Below, piece after piece: positions 2,165 through 13,714 of a stretch of 14,519 nucleotides of DNA (position 1 is the first letter of the stretch; the number at the start of each line of letters is the position of its first letter). The notes beneath the pieces are model-generated. The model was not told where the DNA came from and ran no database searches. It saw nothing but the letters and a program-made list of their open reading frames with translations. Position numbers and translations under genes: made by a program. This DNA is from Oribacterium sp. (lineage in GTDB: Bacteria; Bacillota_A; Clostridia; Lachnospirales; Lachnospiraceae): contig JAGAXP010000113.1 of the NCBI GenBank assembly GCA_017940955.1, positions 1-14,519 of the forward strand, in the 5' to 3' direction.

Positions 2165-3519
2165 ATGGTTTCTGCTAATACATTATGTAAAAAGTTGCTC
2201 AACGTCAAGACCGCTAGCTTGTAGAAAGTGCAGATTTCTACTCGGATCAGGATGGAGTAAATCACATCCGTATCCATGCCAGACCCAACATATGGCACGA
2301 GAACGACTGTCCAATCTGCCATAAGCGATGTAAATGCTATGACACGAAGAATCCTCAGCCTCGTTCTTGGCGGGCATTAGACTGGGGTGCAACACTTGTA
2401 GAAGTCGTTTATGACACCCATCGTATTGAATGCCCTGAGCACGGAGTTCTCGTTGCTGATGTCCCTTGGGCGTATCCTAGCAGTGGCTTTACGAAGGACT
2501 TTGACCTTACCGTAGGTTGGCTTGCCGTTTATCTACCCCGTAGTGTCGTTTCCGAGTATATGAGGATCGACTGGGAAACGGTTGGAAGATGCGTGCACCG
2601 CACCTTGAACGACATTGAGCCGGAGCGCTCCCGCAGGCTTGATAACCTGGTAAATATAGGCATTGATGAAACCAGCTACAAGAAGGGGCACAAATACATT
2701 ACGGTCATTGTTAATCACGATACCAACGCGGTTGTCTAGGCAGCTCAGGGACACGGAAAAACGGTTTTGGAGTCGTTTTACAAACAGCTGTCAAAAGAAC
2801 AGCTTTCCAGCATCAAAGTGGTTACCGGCGATGAAGCCTGGTGGATCACCGACTGTGTCAGAGAATTCACACCTGACTGCGAGCGATGCGTTGATCAGTT
2901 CCAAGTCGTTCAATGGGCGATGGAAGCTCTCGATGAAGTCCACCGTAAGGTCTGGAATGAAGCATACGCCGATGTAAAACAGCTCAAGAAGGAGCACCCA
3001 CGAGGCAAAGGTCGCCCAAAGGAAGATGATTCTTCCACAGCGATTATCAGGGCCGCGAAAGAGAAAGCTGAAGAAATAAAAAACTCAGCATATGCTCTTG
3101 GAAAGGCACCGGAACACCTGACAGAGAAGCAACAACTTCGAGTCCAGATGATTGCCGAAAACAACAACCGACTATACCGTGCCTATCGTATGAAAGAAAT
3201 GCTTCGACTGATTCTTAAAATAAAAGACGTAGATGAAGCAGAGACAACCCTCAAACGCTGGCTATGGTGGGCATCGCATAGCAGAATACCCGCTTTCAAG
3301 GAGCTTTATGAAAAAATCAAACGTCACAAGCAGCATATACTCAATGCGATCCGACTCGGGATGAGTAATGCTCGTATTGAAGCAACTAACAAGAAGATCA
3401 AGCTGATTATTCGCAAGGCATACGGCTTTCGAAACATACAAAATATGCTGGATATGGTATACCTTGTTTGCTCGGATTTAAGGGTCCCGCTTCCTAACCG
3501 AAAACCTAAAGCTACATAA
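2165..3519 (+). pseudogene. ISL3-family transposase, frameshifted and with an in-frame stop
   Basis: Assembled across two lesions, the gene encodes about 451 residues, the normal ISL3 transposase length. ATG at 2165 starts MVSANTLCKKLLNVKTA; the frame then changes near 2214-2218 (a one-base loss or two-base gain) and continues ...FYSDQDGVNHIRIHARP. A zinc-finger region follows (CPICHKRCKCY, later RIECPEHG). At 2737-2739 a TAG interrupts NTNAVV*AAQGHGKT where the family commonly has Trp (TGG). The DDE core is otherwise intact: D in NIGIDETSYKKG, D in VVTGDEAWW, and E in ARIEATNKKIKLIIRKAYGFRN. The longest remaining open part starts at ATG 2767 and would give a 250-residue C-terminal product. 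Two independent lesions make transposition in cis unlikely. Confidence 0.9.
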
Positions 3520-5252: not shown

Positions 5253-5282
5253 TTGACACAAAAAAACAATTATGATTATACT
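5253..5282 (+). promoter_or_regulatory. Consensus sigma-A promoter in a gene-free stretch
   Basis: TTGACA (5253-5258) and TATACT (5277-5282) are separated by 18 bases. Transcription would start near 5289. The nearest coding start downstream is ATG 5750, which leaves a leader of about 460 nt containing a hairpin at 5310-5343 and the structured element at 5491-5622. It could therefore drive a long leader or a stand-alone small RNA. Confidence 0.55.
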
Positions 5283-5490: not shown

Positions 5491-5622
5491 AGCCGTTGAT
5501 CTGATGACAAGCGTAGCTCAAGGAGATTCCGTAGGTGGAATCTGTCCTTGAAGCCTTTTCGCCAATCATCTGATTAACGGCTTTTTTGATGCGCAAAGGT
5601 CTGCACCTTGAAAACTTCATCC
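5491..5622 (+). ncRNA. Structured leader element, copy 1 (terminator-like, unknown family)
   Basis: A long outer stem pairs 5491-5507 with 5566-5582 (AGCCGTT with AACGGCT at the base; one mismatch and one G-U), immediately followed by T at 5582-5587. Inside is a second hairpin: TCAAGGA (5518-5524) with TCCTTGA (5545-5551), then GATTCC with GGAATC, a TG bulge and apical loop GTAGGT. Nineteen bases after the stem a motif beginning CTGCACCTTGAAAA (5601-5622) is shared with copy 2. The layout resembles an attenuator ahead of the 101-aa gene, whose ATG is 128 nt after the motif. A weak -10 candidate CATAAT (5455-5460) has no good -35. An alternative minus-strand reading as a 43-codon ORF (5489-5620) is treated in the findings. 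Confidence 0.5.
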
Positions 5623-5749
5623 CCGAAAGTATCTTTTGATCAACAAGAAAAGGAATGCTATCTGCTGTTCGTAGTACCTATAGATAAGCCGTACTCATAC
5701 AGCACCAATAAACATATCGATTTAAAAAGTGATGGAGGTCATGTGATTT

Positions 5750-6055
5750 ATGAGTAATACAATTATTTCGAAAGCTATTAACAGACACAACAATATCGTT
5801 TGCAACCTTAAGGTCGGAGACCATTTAAGAAGAATTCATGGATTAGAACATTTCAATACTGCCTATGACTACGAGGTAAAAGGTGAATATCCTTATCTAT
5901 ACCTTATTAAGATAAAATACAGACTCGGATCCAGTAATAGCTCCGATGATTACATTTATACTACTGTTTCCAAAGCTTCGATTTACTGCGGAAGCGTAGT
6001 ACTCATCAAGGAAGATGGAAAAAAGGTAGATGCTTATCAGAAAAATTTTTCCTGA
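5750..6055 (+). CDS. Hypothetical protein, 101 aa
   Basis: A small soluble protein starting MSNTIISKAINRHNN, with no signal peptide, membrane helix or recognised domain. The middle and C-terminal parts alternate hydrophobic and polar residues (YPYLYLIKIKYRL, DDYIYTTVSK, GSVVLIKEDGKKV), suggesting a compact beta-rich fold. GGAGG at 5734-5738 is 11 bases before the ATG. An earlier in-frame ATG at 5741 is followed at once by TGA, so it cannot be the start. The gene sits alone between the two copies of the structured element, the first of which probably forms part of its leader. Function unknown. Confidence 0.65.
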   Translation: MSNTIISKAINRHNNIVCNLKVGDHLRRIHGLEHFNTAYDYEVKGEYPYLYLIKIKYRLGSSNSSDDYIYTTVSKASIYCGSVVLIKEDGKKVDAYQKNFS

Positions 6056-6076
6056 TGTCGTGCTACCAAAATTCTC

Positions 6077-6105
6077 TTGCGGATTCAAGCCTACTGATGT
6101 AGAAT
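6077..6105 (+). promoter_or_regulatory. Candidate promoter before structured element copy 2
   Basis: TTGCGG (6077-6082), 17 bases, then TAGAAT (6100-6105; five of six consensus). Transcription would start near 6112, about 26 nt before the base of the copy 2 stem, so that the element would be the 5' end of the operon mRNA. The -35 is weak. Confidence 0.4.
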
Positions 6106-6137
6106 GAATTTCACAAATTGAATATGGTTTGTTTTCA

Positions 6138-6251
6138 AGCCGTTGTTTTGATGATAACCGAAAGATACTCCAGGGGTGGAGTCTATCCTTTCGGGGATTA
6201 TCAAAGCAACGGCTTTTTGTCGTGTACCCTTGCACCTTGACAATTTCATCC
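6138..6251 (+). ncRNA. Structured leader element, copy 2 (terminator-like, unknown family)
   Basis: The same plan as copy 1 with different sequence. The outer stem starts AGCCGTTG (6138) and closes with CAACGGCT (6207-6214), about 18 bp, followed by T at 6214-6218. The inner hairpin has CCGAAAG/CTTTCGG and ACTCC/GGAGT with apical loop AGGGGT. Relative to copy 1 the upper stem changes T-A to C-G (ATTCC/GGAAT to ACTCC/GGAGT), a compensatory change that supports pairing. The trailing motif (6230-6251, TTGCACCTTGACAATT...) lies 16 bases after the stem. The gene start is 122 nt further on. It probably attenuates the 237-aa/AAA+ operon; the signal is unknown. Confidence 0.55.
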
Positions 6252-6258
6252 GCAAATG

Positions 6259-6318
6259 GCCGGACGGCCGACCGGGGAAGCCTCGCGATGACATGAGCGG
6301 GCCAAGGAATAGTCCGGC
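6259..6318 (+). other. GC-rich hairpin in the operon leader
   Basis: GCCGGAC (6259-6265) is a perfect complement of GTCCGGC (6312-6318). Within the loop GCCT(C)GC (6280-6286) can pair with GCGGGC (6297-6302). The GC-rich island stands out from AT-rich surroundings. There is no T-run after it, so it is not a terminator. It lies between the copy 2 motif and the ribosome site of the 237-aa gene and may be a second regulatory fold. Confidence 0.4.
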
Positions 6319-6372
6319 ACATATTGCGACACAATTCTTATAAACGATAACACAGAAAGAGAGGTATGGATT

Positions 6373-7086
6373 ATGACAAATCATATGAAATTAGATTCTA
6401 CAGGTATTGCCAATATCGCGGCGCTTTCTATAGCTTCCGGTGAAGCTGATTACAACCGTGAAAGGGAAACAGCAAAGGTAAGCGAGAGGTTCCTTCATTC
6501 AGCTGCTCTGCTGTCTGAAAATGAAATTCTCGGAACACAGATAGCAGCGGATTCTGAAGGCAATATTACAGTATGTGCTTTCTCAAGTCATGGGATTAAG
6601 GTGTCTGAACAGGATTATGACTGGATCTTCAAAAGCTTTGGTACAGCGGAAAGCAGTAAATCCGTCGAGATTAGAGACTTATATGAGGGAGGCCGGAAAG
6701 TATATTCGCTCACACCTATTCAGGAACCATTAAAGGAAACCAACGAGCCAGGAAAGAAGGATAGTTATTTATACGCAGATGATGATTATTATGACACAAC
6801 TTCCGGTAGCTACTTTTCGGAAATGTTCACCATGTTATTTGAGGATGATGCCGTAATACGCCTAATTGCAGGTTCTGATGGGGAAAACGTGTCGGGACAG
6901 GGAATGATCCTTATCAGCCTTCCAGAGGAAATGACTCTCAGGATGAGGACTATTATATCCCTTGCCTTTCCTCATATGACGGCGGTAGAAGTTAATCCTT
7001 CGGAAGAAACCATCGAAAAGTACCCCCCTTTCGGACAGGTTACTTCTGAACGGAATGACACAATTCCTCTTCTCATTAATTTGTAG
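6373..7086 (+). CDS. Hypothetical protein, 237 aa, first gene of the AAA+ operon
   Basis: It starts [20 protein letters not shown], with AGAGAGG about eight bases before the ATG. No family is recognised. Three parts can be seen: an N-terminal region (residues 1-115) with helical and beta-like stretches; an acidic, Tyr/Asp-rich linker ([17 protein letters not shown], about 138-155); and a C-terminal domain beginning [20 protein letters not shown] and including [20 protein letters not shown] and [12 protein letters not shown]. The last segment alternates hydrophobic strands and a helix like an alpha/beta fold, but no nucleotide-binding motif is visible. Its stop is seven bases from the likely start of the AAA+ gene, so the two are cotranscribed and probably translationally coupled; it may be a partner or substrate adaptor of that ATPase (inference). 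Confidence 0.7.
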
Positions 7087-7093
7087 AGAGTTC

Positions 7094-8257
7094 ATGATGT
7101 CCACTAGAGCGCATAATGAGGTTGAAGTCGAATCGGAAAACCAGATTCTTGAGAATGAAATTGGGGATAAAAAATCCTGTAACGATAATCATCTCGGCTT
7201 TACGCCTATAGAAGATCTAGAGCTAAGTGTCCGTTCTTTAAACTGTCTTAGGCGTGCAGGGATACACAGCTTGGAGGAACTTCAGAAAATGACGGATGAA
7301 GATCTTATGCATGTAAGGAACCTTGGAAAAAAGTGCGTGTATGAGATCAAGCAAAAGCTTGCGGAGACTGAAATTACTACAGCTCCTGTTTCATTAAATT
7401 CTGAAAGCTATATAGATATGCTGAATAACATGGTTGGTCTTTCTGATGTCAAGGAGCAGATTGGTAAAATTACAGCTTTCGCCAGGATGAAGAAAGATAT
7501 GGCTGCTAACGGAAACAACAGCCTATCGATAGCATTGAACATGGAATTTGTAGGGAATCCCGGCACAGCTAAAACAACTGTAGCACGTATTGCCGCAGGC
7601 ATTTTTAATGAGATCGGCCTTCTTCCAGTAAATGGACTGATTGAGGTTGGCAGAGCCGATTTGGTAGCCAAGTATGAAGGACAAACAGCCTCAAAGGTTA
7701 AAGAGATTTTCAGGAAGGCAAAGGGGAAGGTGCTATTCATCGATGAAGCATACTCACTCGTAGAAAACTGGGAGGGTGAGTTCGGAGATGAGGCAATCAA
7801 CACTATCGTCCAAGAAATGGAGAACAACCGTGATGACACAATTGTGATATTTGCCGGTTACCCAGACAAGATGGAAAGCTTTTTTGCCAGGAATCCGGGA
7901 CTGAGGTCAAGGGTACCCTTCAGCGTTACCTTTAAAGACTACTCCGCCGATGAGTTGATGCAGATAGTGGAGCTTGAAGCAAAGAATAGGGGCTTTTCAA
8001 TAAACCAAAAGGCAAAGGATACGGTGCTATCAATCTGTGAGTCAGCAGCTGGAAAGTCTGACTACGGAAACGGACGGTTCTGCAGGAATCTTGTCGAGAA
8101 TGCAATATTGGGATATGCGTCAAGGTTGTATGGGCCAAAGATACCCGACTCTTATGAGTACTTTGAACTCGTAGAAACCGATTTCGTTGTTCCGAAAGCT
8201 TCTAACCATATACAGGAAAAGAAGCGCATAGGCTTTATTATCCCTGACGGAATGTGA
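7094..8257 (+). CDS. AAA+ ATPase of CbbX/SpoVK type with an N-terminal alpha-CTD-like domain
   Basis: Residues about 38-92 resemble the RNA polymerase alpha C-terminal domain ([19 protein letters not shown], then [19 protein letters not shown]), a DNA- and activator-binding helix-hairpin-helix fold. An AAA+ module of the CbxX/CfqX-SpoVK family follows: [15 protein letters not shown], Walker [10 protein letters not shown] (154-162, Lys160), Walker [11 protein letters not shown] (Asp217, Glu218), sensor region [11 protein letters not shown] and the arginine-finger segment NPGLRSR (Arg271/Arg273). The Walker A glycine before the lysine is Ala; the essential Lys and Thr are kept, so ATP binding is still expected. 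ATG 7094 (or 7097) fits the GAGAG at 7086-7090; the frame also opens at ATG 7055, overlapping the previous gene by 32 bases. CbbX-type ATPases are hexameric remodelling machines; a target at transcription complexes is inference from the fused domain. Confidence 0.88.
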
Positions 8258-8277
8258 ATATCAGCTTTCATTTATGA

Positions 8278-8314
8278 GCAAATGGACTCTCTTATACTGT
8301 CCATTTGCTTTTTT
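8278..8314 (+). terminator. Rho-independent terminator of the AAA+ operon
   Basis: GCAAATGGAC (8278-8287) and GTCCATTTGC (8299-8308) form a perfect 10-bp stem with an 11-nt loop, followed by six T. It lies 20 bases after the AAA+ stop. No clear promoter was found in the remaining 8315-8470 before the surface-protein gene. Confidence 0.9.
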
Positions 8315-8481: not shown

Positions 8482-11400
8482 ATGATTCGCTTCGGAAAAA
8501 AGATCAGAAAAAGTGTTTCGGCTCTGGCAGCTGCATCAGTGCTTGTAAACACTGGACTCACGGCCATTGCCGATAACTCAGGAAGTATTAAGACAGCAAC
8601 AAACAACGGTATCACATATGTCACAGGCATAACATCAGGGGACACCGCAGACGGAGTGCTTGTTATTCCGGACGACCTTGGAGAGACAATTTTCCTTGGT
8701 GATCCAAACGGAACAAAAACATTCCTTGTAAACAAGGATGTAAGTACCCTTGTCATTGGAGATAACGTATGGGGCGTTACAAGCTCAGCTTTTACCTATG
8801 CCGATTCACTCAGTACCATCATAGTACCTGAGACCAATACATCATTTGTAGCAGCCCAAGAAGGTCTTTATGGCTATATATCAGATAATAACTATTCCCT
8901 CATTAAGTACTATTCCGGTAATCCCAGACAGGATTTCGTCATACCGGATTACACAACAATGGTAATAAGTGCAGATGATGCGGAATTTGCAACACTTAAT
9001 CTTAACAGGGTATCAACTGTATATCCTCTTACTTTTGCAGGAACAAGCATAGACACACTCATTTTAACAAATGATGTCACAAATGCTGCGGCTGATGTTG
9101 CTGAAAGCTCCGATATCCTTTATGGCGCAAAGGTTGGCAGTTTTATGGCATCAGGAGCATTTCAGACAAACTATGACGGTTCGATCCTTTCAAAGAATGG
9201 ACGAATCATCAAGTTCTCAGAGTATGCGGACTCAAGCGTAGATGTTTCAGGATATACAAGCATTTCTCCATTTGCTTTCACAAGTATCGCTCAGTATGAG
9301 GACATCCGTGGTAATCTTCCGGATGAGATGATAAAGGATGTGGTATTCTCATTCTACGATCAGGGCGAAGCTGTTTTCTACGTTAATGACGAGATATGTT
9401 TCTGCTATAACTACGACAGATGGATGCCAGGACGAGTTAATAATAAGAACAGCTACATCCTTTCATCCAGCGGACTATCCGAGAGCCAGTACAATAACGT
9501 AAAGAAACTCATGTACTATGGTGTTCCTAACGACCAGACCGGGCTTTTTGAAGAAGTATTCGGGGTAGACTACGATTCAGTAAAGGGAACATTTGAGAAT
9601 GGCGATGCGGCCCTTAATGTTGTTTCAAGCCTTTTATATAGGTTTGTCACAGATGGTGCACATGAGCCTTCAGAGATAAAGGGAATTGACGGACAGATCT
9701 TTACCGAAGCAAAGGTGGTTGCTTATAGAAATGCCCTTCTCAGCGCCATACAGAATGATAATGCAGAAAGAGGAAATGTATCATTCAATGCAGATGAGGA
9801 TATAGTTTTCACACTTCAGGATGACAGCACCTATATGTCAAATGAAGTAACGATTACAGCTTCCGATGATGCGGTTCACACACTCAAGATCACAAGCGAA
9901 GGTATTACCGTAAGCGGAAGTGATGAATTCTCAACAGGTACACAGATCCACTTCACAAGTGATTCTAAGCCATCAGAGATTAAATTCACAACCGAAGACG
10001 TATCACTAAGCTTTTACGTAACTGATTCAAAACACCAGAACGTACTTACTTCTTCAACCACTACAGTAGAGCACACACTTCCTGTAAAGGAAAAAGAGGA
10101 AGTACATAACGAGATCCCGATCTCTAAGAAGGATGCAACAACTAAGGAAGAACTAAGCGGCGCATTCCTTGTACTCTACGATGAAGATGGCGAGGAAGTT
10201 GATTCATGGATCTCCGACGAGGAACCTCATCTTGTATATGACCTTCCTGACGGAACATACAAGCTTGTTGAATCCATCGCACCGGAAGATTATAGCGTTA
10301 CAGAAGACGTGACTTTCGAAGTTAAAGACGGAAAAGTAAAGAAAGAAGTTGTGATGTACGATGAGAAGATAGAAAAGGTTGCAACATCCTCTGAAATTCC
10401 TATCTCAAAGCAGGATATTACTAACGGTAAGGAGCTCCCCGGAGCGGAGCTTACACTCTATGACGAGGATGGCGAAGTAGTAGAGAGCTGGACTTCAAAG
10501 AAAACACCACACATCATGAAAAACCTTAAGGACGGATTCTATACACTTGAAGAAATAACTGCTCCTGAAGGTTATGATCTTGCTGAAGATATTGAATTTG
10601 AAGTAGTTGACGGAAAGGTTGCTGAAAGCGTCATCATGTATGATGCACCTCTTACAGAAGAGATTGCATCTGCATCAGAGATTTCAATCCGTAAGACAGA
10701 CATTACAAACGGAAAAGAACTTCCCGGAGCTAAACTTAAGATTACAAACGAGGACGGAGAAGAAGTTGAATCCTGGACATCCGGCGAAAAGCCCCATGTA
10801 ATAAAGAACCTTAAGGACGGTAAATACGTGCTTGAAGAGGTTACGGCTCCAGACGGTTACGAAATAGCAGAATCCATTGAATTTACTGTTGTCGAAGGTG
10901 AAGCTCAGACAATCGTAATGAAGGATGCTCCCACTAAAGAAGAACCGGAAGAGGAACCCGAGAAGACAAAGGTTGTTCTCCATAAGAAAGACTTTACTAC
11001 CGGCGATGAACTTCCTGGTGCAGAACTGATAGTTGAAGACTCAGAAGGAAACGAGATCGACAGCTGGGTATCCGAGGAAGAACCTCACGAAATCGAGGAC
11101 CTTTCGGACGGAACCTATTATCTCATAGAGATTACAGCTCCAGACGGCTACCTTGTAGCAGAAAAGGTTGAATTCAAGGTATCATCCGGTAAATCCGTAG
11201 TAACCGTTACAATGAAGGATAAGAGAGAGCCGGAAGAAACAGTAAAGGAAGACACGCCCGAAGAGACACAGCTGGAAACTGAAGCCCCATTGGAAACACA
11301 GCCGGAGACTGAAGCATCAACTGAAACGCAACCAGAAACAGAAGCTACTAACGAGACTCAGCAAGAAACTGAGGCTCAAAAGGAAGAGAAAAAATCAGAG

Positions 11401-11685
11401 ACTCCTACATCTCATAAGTCAAGCGGCAGTCATTCAGGAGGTGGTGGCGGAAGCTATGTGATAGGCCGAGGACTTGAGTTCAATAAAAGAGCAGAGACAC
11501 CTGATCTTGTCACTACACAAGTGGATACTCCTATTACAGCTGATGTTCCTCAGAACGTAAGAGTTCTTGCAGCAAGAAGGACTCCCAAGACCGGCGAGAA
11601 CAGAAGTATGACAACTCTTTTGAGCGCTGCTGTGTTTATCACAGCGGTCTATGGATTCCTGAAGCCTGAAAAGAATAAGATTTAA
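8482..11685 (+). CDS. Sortase-anchored surface protein: BspA-like LRR, degenerate thioester-like domain, four Cna-B/SpaA domains
   Basis: 1067 aa, starting after GGAAGGGAG with MIRFGKKIRKSVSALAAASV, a signal peptide. Residues about 40-250 show BspA-type leucine-rich repeats (STLVIGDNVWGVTSSAF, LSTIIVPETN). About 295-410 resembles a thioester (TQXA-type) domain: Cys306/Cys308 in ICFCYNYDRW and LMYYGVPND, but the expected T-Q-x-A before the final helix is replaced by NVVSSLLYRF (379-388), so no thioester Gln is evident. Four Cna-B/SpaA repeats begin near 544, 638, 733 and 830, each with the K-x-D lysine (K549, K643, K738, K835), the Glu of L-x-E-x-x-AP and a final M-(Y/K)-D, consistent with intramolecular isopeptide bonds. 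Then come a T/E/P stalk, GGGGGS, sorting motif TPKTG (1034-1038), a hydrophobic segment and a basic tail. It is probably an adhesin; the ligand is unknown. Confidence 0.88.
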   Translation: MIRFGKKIRKSVSALAAASVLVNTGLTAIADNSGSIKTATNNGITYVTGITSGDTADGVLVIPDDLGETIFLGDPNGTKTFLVNKDVSTLVIGDNVWGVTSSAFTYADSLSTIIVPETNTSFVAAQEGLYGYISDNNYSLIKYYSGNPRQDFVIPDYTTMVISADDAEFATLNLNRVSTVYPLTFAGTSIDTLILTNDVTNAAADVAESSDILYGAKVGSFMASGAFQTNYDGSILSKNGRIIKFSEYADSSVDVSGYTSISPFAFTSIAQYEDIRGNLPDEMIKDVVFSFYDQGEAVFYVNDEICFCYNYDRWMPGRVNNKNSYILSSSGLSESQYNNVKKLMYYGVPNDQTGLFEEVFGVDYDSVKGTFENGDAALNVVSSLLYRFVTDGAHEPSEIKGIDGQIFTEAKVVAYRNALLSAIQNDNAERGNVSFNADEDIVFTLQDDSTYMSNEVTITASDDAVHTLKITSEGITVSGSDEFSTGTQIHFTSDSKPSEIKFTTEDVSLSFYVTDSKHQNVLTSSTTTVEHTLPVKEKEEVHNEIPISKKDATTKEELSGAFLVLYDEDGEEVDSWISDEEPHLVYDLPDGTYKLVESIAPEDYSVTEDVTFEVKDGKVKKEVVMYDEKIEKVATSSEIPISKQDITNGKELPGAELTLYDEDGEVVESWTSKKTPHIMKNLKDGFYTLEEITAPEGYDLAEDIEFEVVDGKVAESVIMYDAPLTEEIASASEISIRKTDITNGKELPGAKLKITNEDGEEVESWTSGEKPHVIKNLKDGKYVLEEVTAPDGYEIAESIEFTVVEGEAQTIVMKDAPTKEEPEEEPEKTKVVLHKKDFTTGDELPGAELIVEDSEGNEIDSWVSEEEPHEIEDLSDGTYYLIEITAPDGYLVAEKVEFKVSSGKSVVTVTMKDKREPEETVKEDTPEETQLETEAPLETQPETEASTETQPETEATNETQQETEAQKEEKKSETPTSHKSSGSHSGGGGGSYVIGRGLEFNKRAETPDLVTTQVDTPITADVPQNVRVLAARRTPKTGENRSMTTLLSAAVFITAVYGFLKPEKNKI

Positions 11686-13563: not shown

Positions 13564-13608
13564 GATTAAAAACCCTTGCACTGCAAAAACACATAAGTGT
13601 CATCTACA

Positions 13609-13714
13609 GTACAAACTGAGCAGGCAGTACTTTTCTAAGATGGAAAATGTATGTAGCCGGGTCGATAAACGACAGCAGAGAAGTCTAAAACGCATCTGCG
13701 GGACAGTAGTATGT
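13609..13714 (+). promoter_or_regulatory. NiCo (czcD) riboswitch aptamer
   Basis: The segment carries the conserved parts of the NiCo riboswitch in order: AACTGAGCAGGCA (13614-13626), GTAGCCGGG (13653-13661) with a small hairpin (TCG-ataaa-CGA) and CAGCAGA, and finally TCTGCGGGACAGTA (13695-13708). The four-way junction, with its repeated G-C-A-G-G/G-G-A-C-A purine motifs that hold the metal ions, can be drawn; the closing helix pairs GTAC..ACT with AGT.GTAT. Known members bind Ni(II)/Co(II), with Fe(II) also proposed, and switch on CDF efflux genes, which matches the downstream gene. Confidence 0.85.

Follow-up and report, generated by a model that had tools for sequence, protein, structure and literature searches.

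A leader RNA with boxA, a conserved rod and a kink-turn-like tip ahead of a CbbX-like AAA+ gene in Oribacterium: a candidate canT-like antitermination element

What do two diverged copies of a structured leader do in front of adjacent genes of an Oribacterium genome? The stretch of DNA analyzed here (14,519 nt; hereafter, the window) had been noticed in a preliminary description for two such copies on the forward strand, each with a T-run followed by a common motif, and this arrangement was confirmed by folding. Copy 1 (5491-5587) has a 92-nt hairpin at 5491-5582 with a T-run at 5582-5587 (-45.3 kcal/mol, z = -6.92), and copy 2 (6137-6218) has a 79-nt hairpin at 6137-6215 with a T-run at 6214-6218 (-47.6 kcal/mol, z = -8.29); none of 200 shuffles folded as well as either one. 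The outer stem AGCCGTT/AACGGCT common to both copies, the GGT at the hairpin loop and a compensatory change in the upper stem (GATTCC/GGAATC vs ACTCC/GGAGT) are present as first described, and the gene starts said to follow the motif by about 125 nt lie 127 nt (ORF from 5750) and 121 nt (ORF from 6373) behind its 20-nt version. Chance alone is insufficient to explain this arrangement, given that the order of hairpin, T-run and motif recurs in other genomes. Both copies have a stable stem with a U-run directly behind it, as expected of intrinsic terminators. A simple terminator scan, which demands an unbroken stem, returned neither of the two long hairpins, so the label "terminator" rests on the fold and the T-run.

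Behind the T-run, the two copies directly repeat one motif, at 5602-5627 and 6231-6256 with 85% identity over 26 nt; it reads GCACCTTGAMAAYTTCATCC in the two leaders (5603-5622 in copy 1, 6232-6251 in copy 2, both on the + strand). It had been placed correctly beyond the T-run, where it would be transcribed only on read-through, and had been left unrecognized. rRNA operons were located in two of the ten genomes searched for 16S rRNA, with GAACCTTGAAAATC before and GCACCTTGAAAATC behind the 16S rRNA gene in G383, and GAACCTTGATAATT and GTACCTTGAAAACT at the same places in G097. The leader motif matches the boxA of the rRNA operons in these two related genomes, and is by sequence a predicted NusB/NusE site, boxA; the copy 2 site was also recovered in the search with the rod model described below. 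The window leaders have the boxA letters of the rRNA-operon antitermination site in common, whereas in copy 2 it is a rod and a protein gene that stand behind boxA.

This rod (6251-6328, + strand) is the largest part of the leader, lies behind the boxA of copy 2 only, and was overlooked in the preliminary description. It forms one long stem composed of P0, P1, an internal loop, P2, a conserved GGGGAA/CAA loop, P3 and the tip. Across 22 rods, 92.6% of the cells were paired and 20 of 22 pairs changed on both sides, with a covariation score of 0.537 vs 0.190 in shuffles and at most 0.081 in slid controls, for an alignment that was fitted to the structure, which favors the score, and in which the L063 row is a 36-nt piece only. 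P0, for example, pairs as CGCAA/TTGCG in the window and as CGCAT/ATGCG or CATGA/TCATG in relatives. The suspected leader family, covarying and consistently placed before genes, is thereby borne out for copy 2, which behaves neither as a randomly placed element nor as a plain repeat.

Several other identities were considered for the rod. Neither the leaders nor the rod matched an Rfam family, which speaks against a known riboswitch or other Rfam RNA, and the cores of Hammerhead- and HDV-like ribozymes did not appear to fit. A short ORF over the rod, from a conserved ATG near 6256, was rejected by eye, as its frame is broken in L005, no Shine-Dalgarno sequence was seen and the sequence letters track the stems instead. 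A three-way junction was superseded by the single rod once relatives were compared.

A kink-turn, as described in PMC4316175, joins two helices through a three-base bulge and, following it, tandem G.A/A.G pairs. The rod tip in the window (6284-6301, + strand) reads CGC-GAT-GA-CAT-GA-GCG, and an anchored pattern, NGC-NNN-GA...N-GA-GCN, written after seeing the sequences, fits 20 of the 22 rods (all except L061 and L089) and at most 11% of shuffles per sequence. The pattern lies 47-56 nt after the boxA start in these 20 rods, counted from a chosen start in L063, where no clear boxA was seen. The window tip lacks the second helix that L067 and others possess; its two GA steps are bridged by a loop of just three bases, which makes it kink-loop-like. 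Of 24 leaders, 14 had fitted an earlier and stricter version of the pattern. The signature is absent from copy 1 and L025, and among 13 later members of the family it occurs in seven, the other six being mutual close relatives with a plain loop (L130-L135).

To place the leader among its relatives, genome contigs were scanned for the exact motif, which gave 26 loci, and viral contigs, which gave none. A hairpin ahead of the motif was found in eight of the 26 (L001, L003, L005, L007, L009, L014, L025 and L026, of which L003, L009 and L014 are near-identical), all in MAGs, five assigned to Lachnospiraceae, two to Eubacteriaceae and one to Bacillota; the other 18 lacked such a hairpin by eye. A covariance model built from three close sequences (R1) recovers L001, L003, L005, L009 and L014, each with an E-value no higher than 7.5e-12. 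Searching Lachnospiraceae genomes with such a model had been suggested at the outset, and R1 matched 14 of 397 genomes (E ≤ 0.01) of the family of G004, the genome of L007; a rod model with the outer stem added (R2) had matches at E ≤ 0.001 in three of 391 genomes of the class and in two of 42 of the genus, each time including G004; and a model from the 22 rods (R3) had matches in 19 of 344 genomes of the order (6 known, 13 new), the genome samples overlapping and the filters being strict, such that these counts are not exact frequencies. G004 and G003, among the 14 genomes of R1, were known beforehand. The distribution of the rod is patchy.

Copy 2 precedes an AAA+ protein that is split over two overlapping frames on the + strand, the first encoding its N-domain (6373-7086; ORF and relatives' alignment) and the second an RNA polymerase alpha-CTD-like domain plus a CbbX/SpoVK-like AAA+ ATPase (7055-8257; profile match and family names). 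In 11 aligned relatives these domains are fused in one chain, with family names obtained for L068, L069, L082 and the window. The split in the window may be either a frameshift or a programmed shift; the copy of the gene at L007 has a break near its end. The predicted AAA+ structure has the CbbX fold, and the structure model of the N-domain (pTM 0.44) identified no fold. The gene looks monocistronic in the window, and is followed by a terminator-like hairpin with a T-run (8277-8314, + strand; seen by eye, not in the simple scan output).

The N-domain protein links the gene to the RNA. It is encoded in seven of the 397 genomes, all of which carry the leader, six as R1 matches (6 of the 14 RNA-positive genomes) and the seventh, G081, at an R2 E-value of 3.6e-5. 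Behind the leaders of L003 and L005 lies another AAA ATPase. Elsewhere the rod precedes ClpP and a TraG-type coupling protein (L075), a serine recombinase 4.3 kb downstream (L074), a virion structural gene in a phage-like operon (L072), and, from reading of the sequence, replication and mobilisation genes (L129, L137). The rod thus stands before either the CbbX-like AAA+/alpha-CTD gene or mobile-element operons. This gene set also bears on the earlier suggestion of a ligand or protein sensor, with the rod as an undescribed aptamer. Conserved internal loops and covariation would suit an aptamer, and kink-turns are described as common in riboswitches (PMC4316175), but the downstream genes have no metabolic theme in common and Rfam offers no match; nothing was found in favor of small-molecule sensing, and we regard an aptamer as highly improbable.

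The ORF behind copy 1 (5750-6055, + strand) encodes a 101-aa protein of no known family in profile and database searches, with eight database relatives. In the 397 genomes it has three matches, the single good one being a fragment interrupted by stops that lacks the leader. Because it lacks the rod and its 101-aa protein has few relatives, copy 1 (hairpin and boxA) is an incomplete or different variant; it and L025 score 19-20 bits against R1 (E about 0.01). In copy 1 (5623-5720) and L025 (3286-3345), another common stretch, AAAGTATCTTT...GGAAATGC-like, replaces the rod in these two examples, and L025 has no sense-strand gene behind it.

The long hairpin goes together with the AAA+ gene. Among 23 leaders scored for a hairpin with a T-run (L063 left out), it stands before boxA in all 13 of the AAA+ class (window copy 2, L001, L007, L026, L056, L057, L058, L061, L066, L088, L089, L090 and L094); in L026 it is farther away, by eye at more than 40 nt. 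It is also carried by copy 1, L003, L005 and L025. The gap between T-run and boxA is usually just 13-18 nt. In L067 a hairpin extends up to boxA, in L060 one is 57 nt away, L062, L064 and L065 have diffuse folds only (over 110 nt), and L059 has no hairpin with a T-run before boxA. Only L124 among the 13 later members has the look of the AAA+ class, with four lacking a hairpin and eight having folds that are diffuse, weak or distant. A regular occurrence of the long terminator-like hairpin is confined to the AAA+ class (13/13). Over five relatives, 9 of 34 hairpin pairs changed on both sides, with a score of 0.265 vs 0.175 in shuffled and at most 0.118 in slid controls, the L026 row being shortened. 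The hairpin tips (6167-6188 and 5524-5549) have a short stem, an NGGG-like loop and then AGTCT-(G/A)TC with a one- or two-base bulge. By eye this NGGG-like tip is common to many of the hairpins, not including L003, L005, L066, L088 and L094, and it could be a candidate protein site.

Whether transcription enters the leader ahead of the hairpin was approached through promoter-like sequences. Over 17 leaders, the mean match was 9.2 vs 6.2 in shuffles, in 12 of the 17 the matches ended 20-34 nt ahead of the hairpin, and five beat 99% of shuffles. The window copies do not reach that 99% level (0.41 and 0.33 of shuffles as good). Copy 2 has TTGCGG-17-TAGAAT (6077-6105, + strand; 8/12, equalled by a third of shuffles), and about 208 nt before hairpin 1 lies TTGACA-18-TATACT (5253-5282, + strand; 11/12), for which the evidence is weak because its region has fewer promoter-like sites (6) than expected from shuffles (9.5). 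The weak promoter evidence in the window would fit a hairpin that only insulates the gene against upstream transcription, with the gene read from an unrecognised promoter; the promoter-like matches before the hairpin across the 17 leaders and the short distance usually left between T-run and boxA make such insulation very unlikely. A small alternative hairpin in copy 2 (6124-6143, + strand), equalled by 2.5% of shuffles, would tie up the terminator's outer 5' arm. The mean for this hairpin over the 17 leaders is 11.9 vs 9.75 in shuffles, and it beats 95% of shuffles in four of them, copy 2 included.

A comparable plan was found in canT of Tn916, a 452-nt stretch between orf8 and xis reported, on experimental evidence, as a cis-acting processive antiterminator that most likely acts as RNA (PMC11658703); the main text of that report does not mention boxA or NusB. 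We mapped canT to pCF10 42079-41628 (minus strand), where the published S3 triplet falls at the expected place, and found there a boxA followed by CGC-CAT-GA-stem-C-GA-GCG. Five ICE relatives, examined among 34 plasmid records with BLAST matches, all have boxA and the kink signature (64-92 nt apart), and in L118, L119 and L120 this was not built in by the search, because the part matched by BLAST there includes neither boxA nor the stem. A boxA followed by a kink-turn stem thus occurs in the window rod and in six of six canT-type regions, by a criterion that was proposed in this analysis and lies outside the published definition of canT. The R3 model did not recover canT (E = 2, boxA only). 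The first, stricter kink pattern gave one match in pCF10 plus pLS20 vs 0.6 in shuffles, of which only the position inside canT is telling. According to the published constructs, the cloned canT fragment starts within boxA, the S3 mutation lies outside the stem, and an inactive deletion starts at the 3' strand of the stem. A second conserved part, the one matched by BLAST, stands behind the canT-type stem in L114 (41920-41800, minus strand), L118, L119 and L120, and also occurs in Tn1549-like elements.

Like copy 2, canT presents boxA and then a kink-signature stem in a non-coding transcript stretch feeding an operon, and it has the mobile-element setting of part of the rod family. It differs in its length of 452 nt, its second conserved part, the sequence and loops of its stem, and in having no long hairpin with a T-run ahead of boxA; its activity was tested experimentally, whereas the window RNA is known from its sequence. 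That the leader works like canT is a reasoned analogy, and we do not claim that it is a canT. RNA-based processive antitermination, the kind proposed here, is also reported for the conAn (pLS20), EAR and put RNAs (PMC8955417, PMC11658703); the first 50 kb of pLS20 contain no boxA with kink signature and no R3 match. The LoaP leader (dfn hairpin, PMC12691694) likewise combines a leader hairpin with an intrinsic terminator, but its hairpin is described with a UNCG loop and the window tips have AGGG and GTAGGT loops. Among the literature matches listed, which cover the field in part, none describes a boxA plus kink-turn leader.

By this analogy, the leader of copy 2 may be an attenuated leader feeding a canT-like processive-antitermination RNA, to which we give a probability of about one half. 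We infer the start site, termination at the hairpin, factor loading, antitermination, trigger and target as follows. In both copies, transcription would start upstream and mostly stop at the T-run of the long-stem intrinsic terminator, with read-through allowed by the alternative small hairpin or by a factor at the hairpin. In copy 2 only, polymerases that pass would transcribe boxA and the rod with its kink-turn-like tip; by analogy with canT, these elements could equip the polymerase with Nus factors and perhaps also with a kink-turn protein. The polymerase so equipped might then resist later termination across the AAA+ gene, and might even read through the terminator-like hairpin at 8277. 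The hairpin folds, the T-runs, their presence in all 13 AAA+ leaders and some hairpin covariation speak for these two stages, as do the boxA shared with rRNA operons, the covarying rod, its link to the N-domain protein and to mobile operons, and the boxA with kink signature in canT and its five relatives. Against them stand the failure of R3 to recover canT, the start of the cloned canT fragment within boxA and the place of the S3 mutation, the post hoc kink patterns, the plain loops in 6 of 13 later members, the weak promoter evidence in the window, the monocistronic look of the gene, and the place of the terminator ahead of boxA in the AAA+ class; because the terminator comes first, boxA and rod cannot act on it as such sites usually do, and the two parts must therefore act one after the other.

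The same order of parts would also fit an attenuator in which a factor or an alternative fold decides on read-through at the hairpin, and boxA and rod only aid the leader, by shielding its untranslated RNA from Rho or by helping it to fold, as rRNA boxA does. Pointing this way are the position of the terminator-like hairpin, immediately ahead of boxA in the AAA+ class, the small alternative hairpin that some members have, and the Nus complex and Rho protection described for rRNA in literature abstracts; the strong conservation of the rod, and rods without such a hairpin in mobile operons, would be left unexplained, and we consider this account unlikely. Alternatively, boxA might act in feedback, binding NusB/NusE in the 5' UTR and lowering expression of the downstream gene. 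In E. coli, suhB is reportedly such a boxA target. The position of boxA in the 5' UTR agrees with this, and repression by the Nus complex is reported in PMC5725501, but the rod would not be needed, and repression would have no obvious use before mobile operons, so feedback appears quite improbable.

Read as an antitermination leader, the element has a wider bearing. Few cases of RNA-based processive antitermination are known in Firmicutes; a compact, strongly covarying element, ~100 nt long and comprising boxA and a tip like that of a kink-turn, offers a concrete core to mutate and test. The boxA plus kink plan, common to ICE antiterminators and chromosomal genes, suggests roles of NusB and bacterial kink-turn proteins in mobile-element expression. 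YlxQ is an L7Ae-like protein whose gene lies within the nusA operon. In a broader and speculative reading, rather unlikely as a whole, processive antitermination RNAs with boxA and the kink-turn rod as their shared core would form a widespread class, represented in ICEs of the Tn916/Tn1549 type (canT), on plasmids, in phages and at domesticated AAA+ genes of the chromosome; the kink would recruit the host YlxQ, together with NusB/NusE, onto the polymerase; and the AAA+/alpha-CTD genes would stay silent behind their additional long-stem terminator until something changes the polymerase, such as a mobile element entering the cell.

Three further features of the window were observed. An ISL3-type transposase (2767-3519) is possibly incomplete, because its profile match begins inside the domain. 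After the terminator-like hairpin at 8277-8314, a large surface protein with four SpaA repeats is encoded at 8482-11685. A NiCo riboswitch (13606-13708; 70.8 bits, gathering threshold 37) lies directly before an ORF from 13711 that resembles, by eye, a cation-efflux protein.
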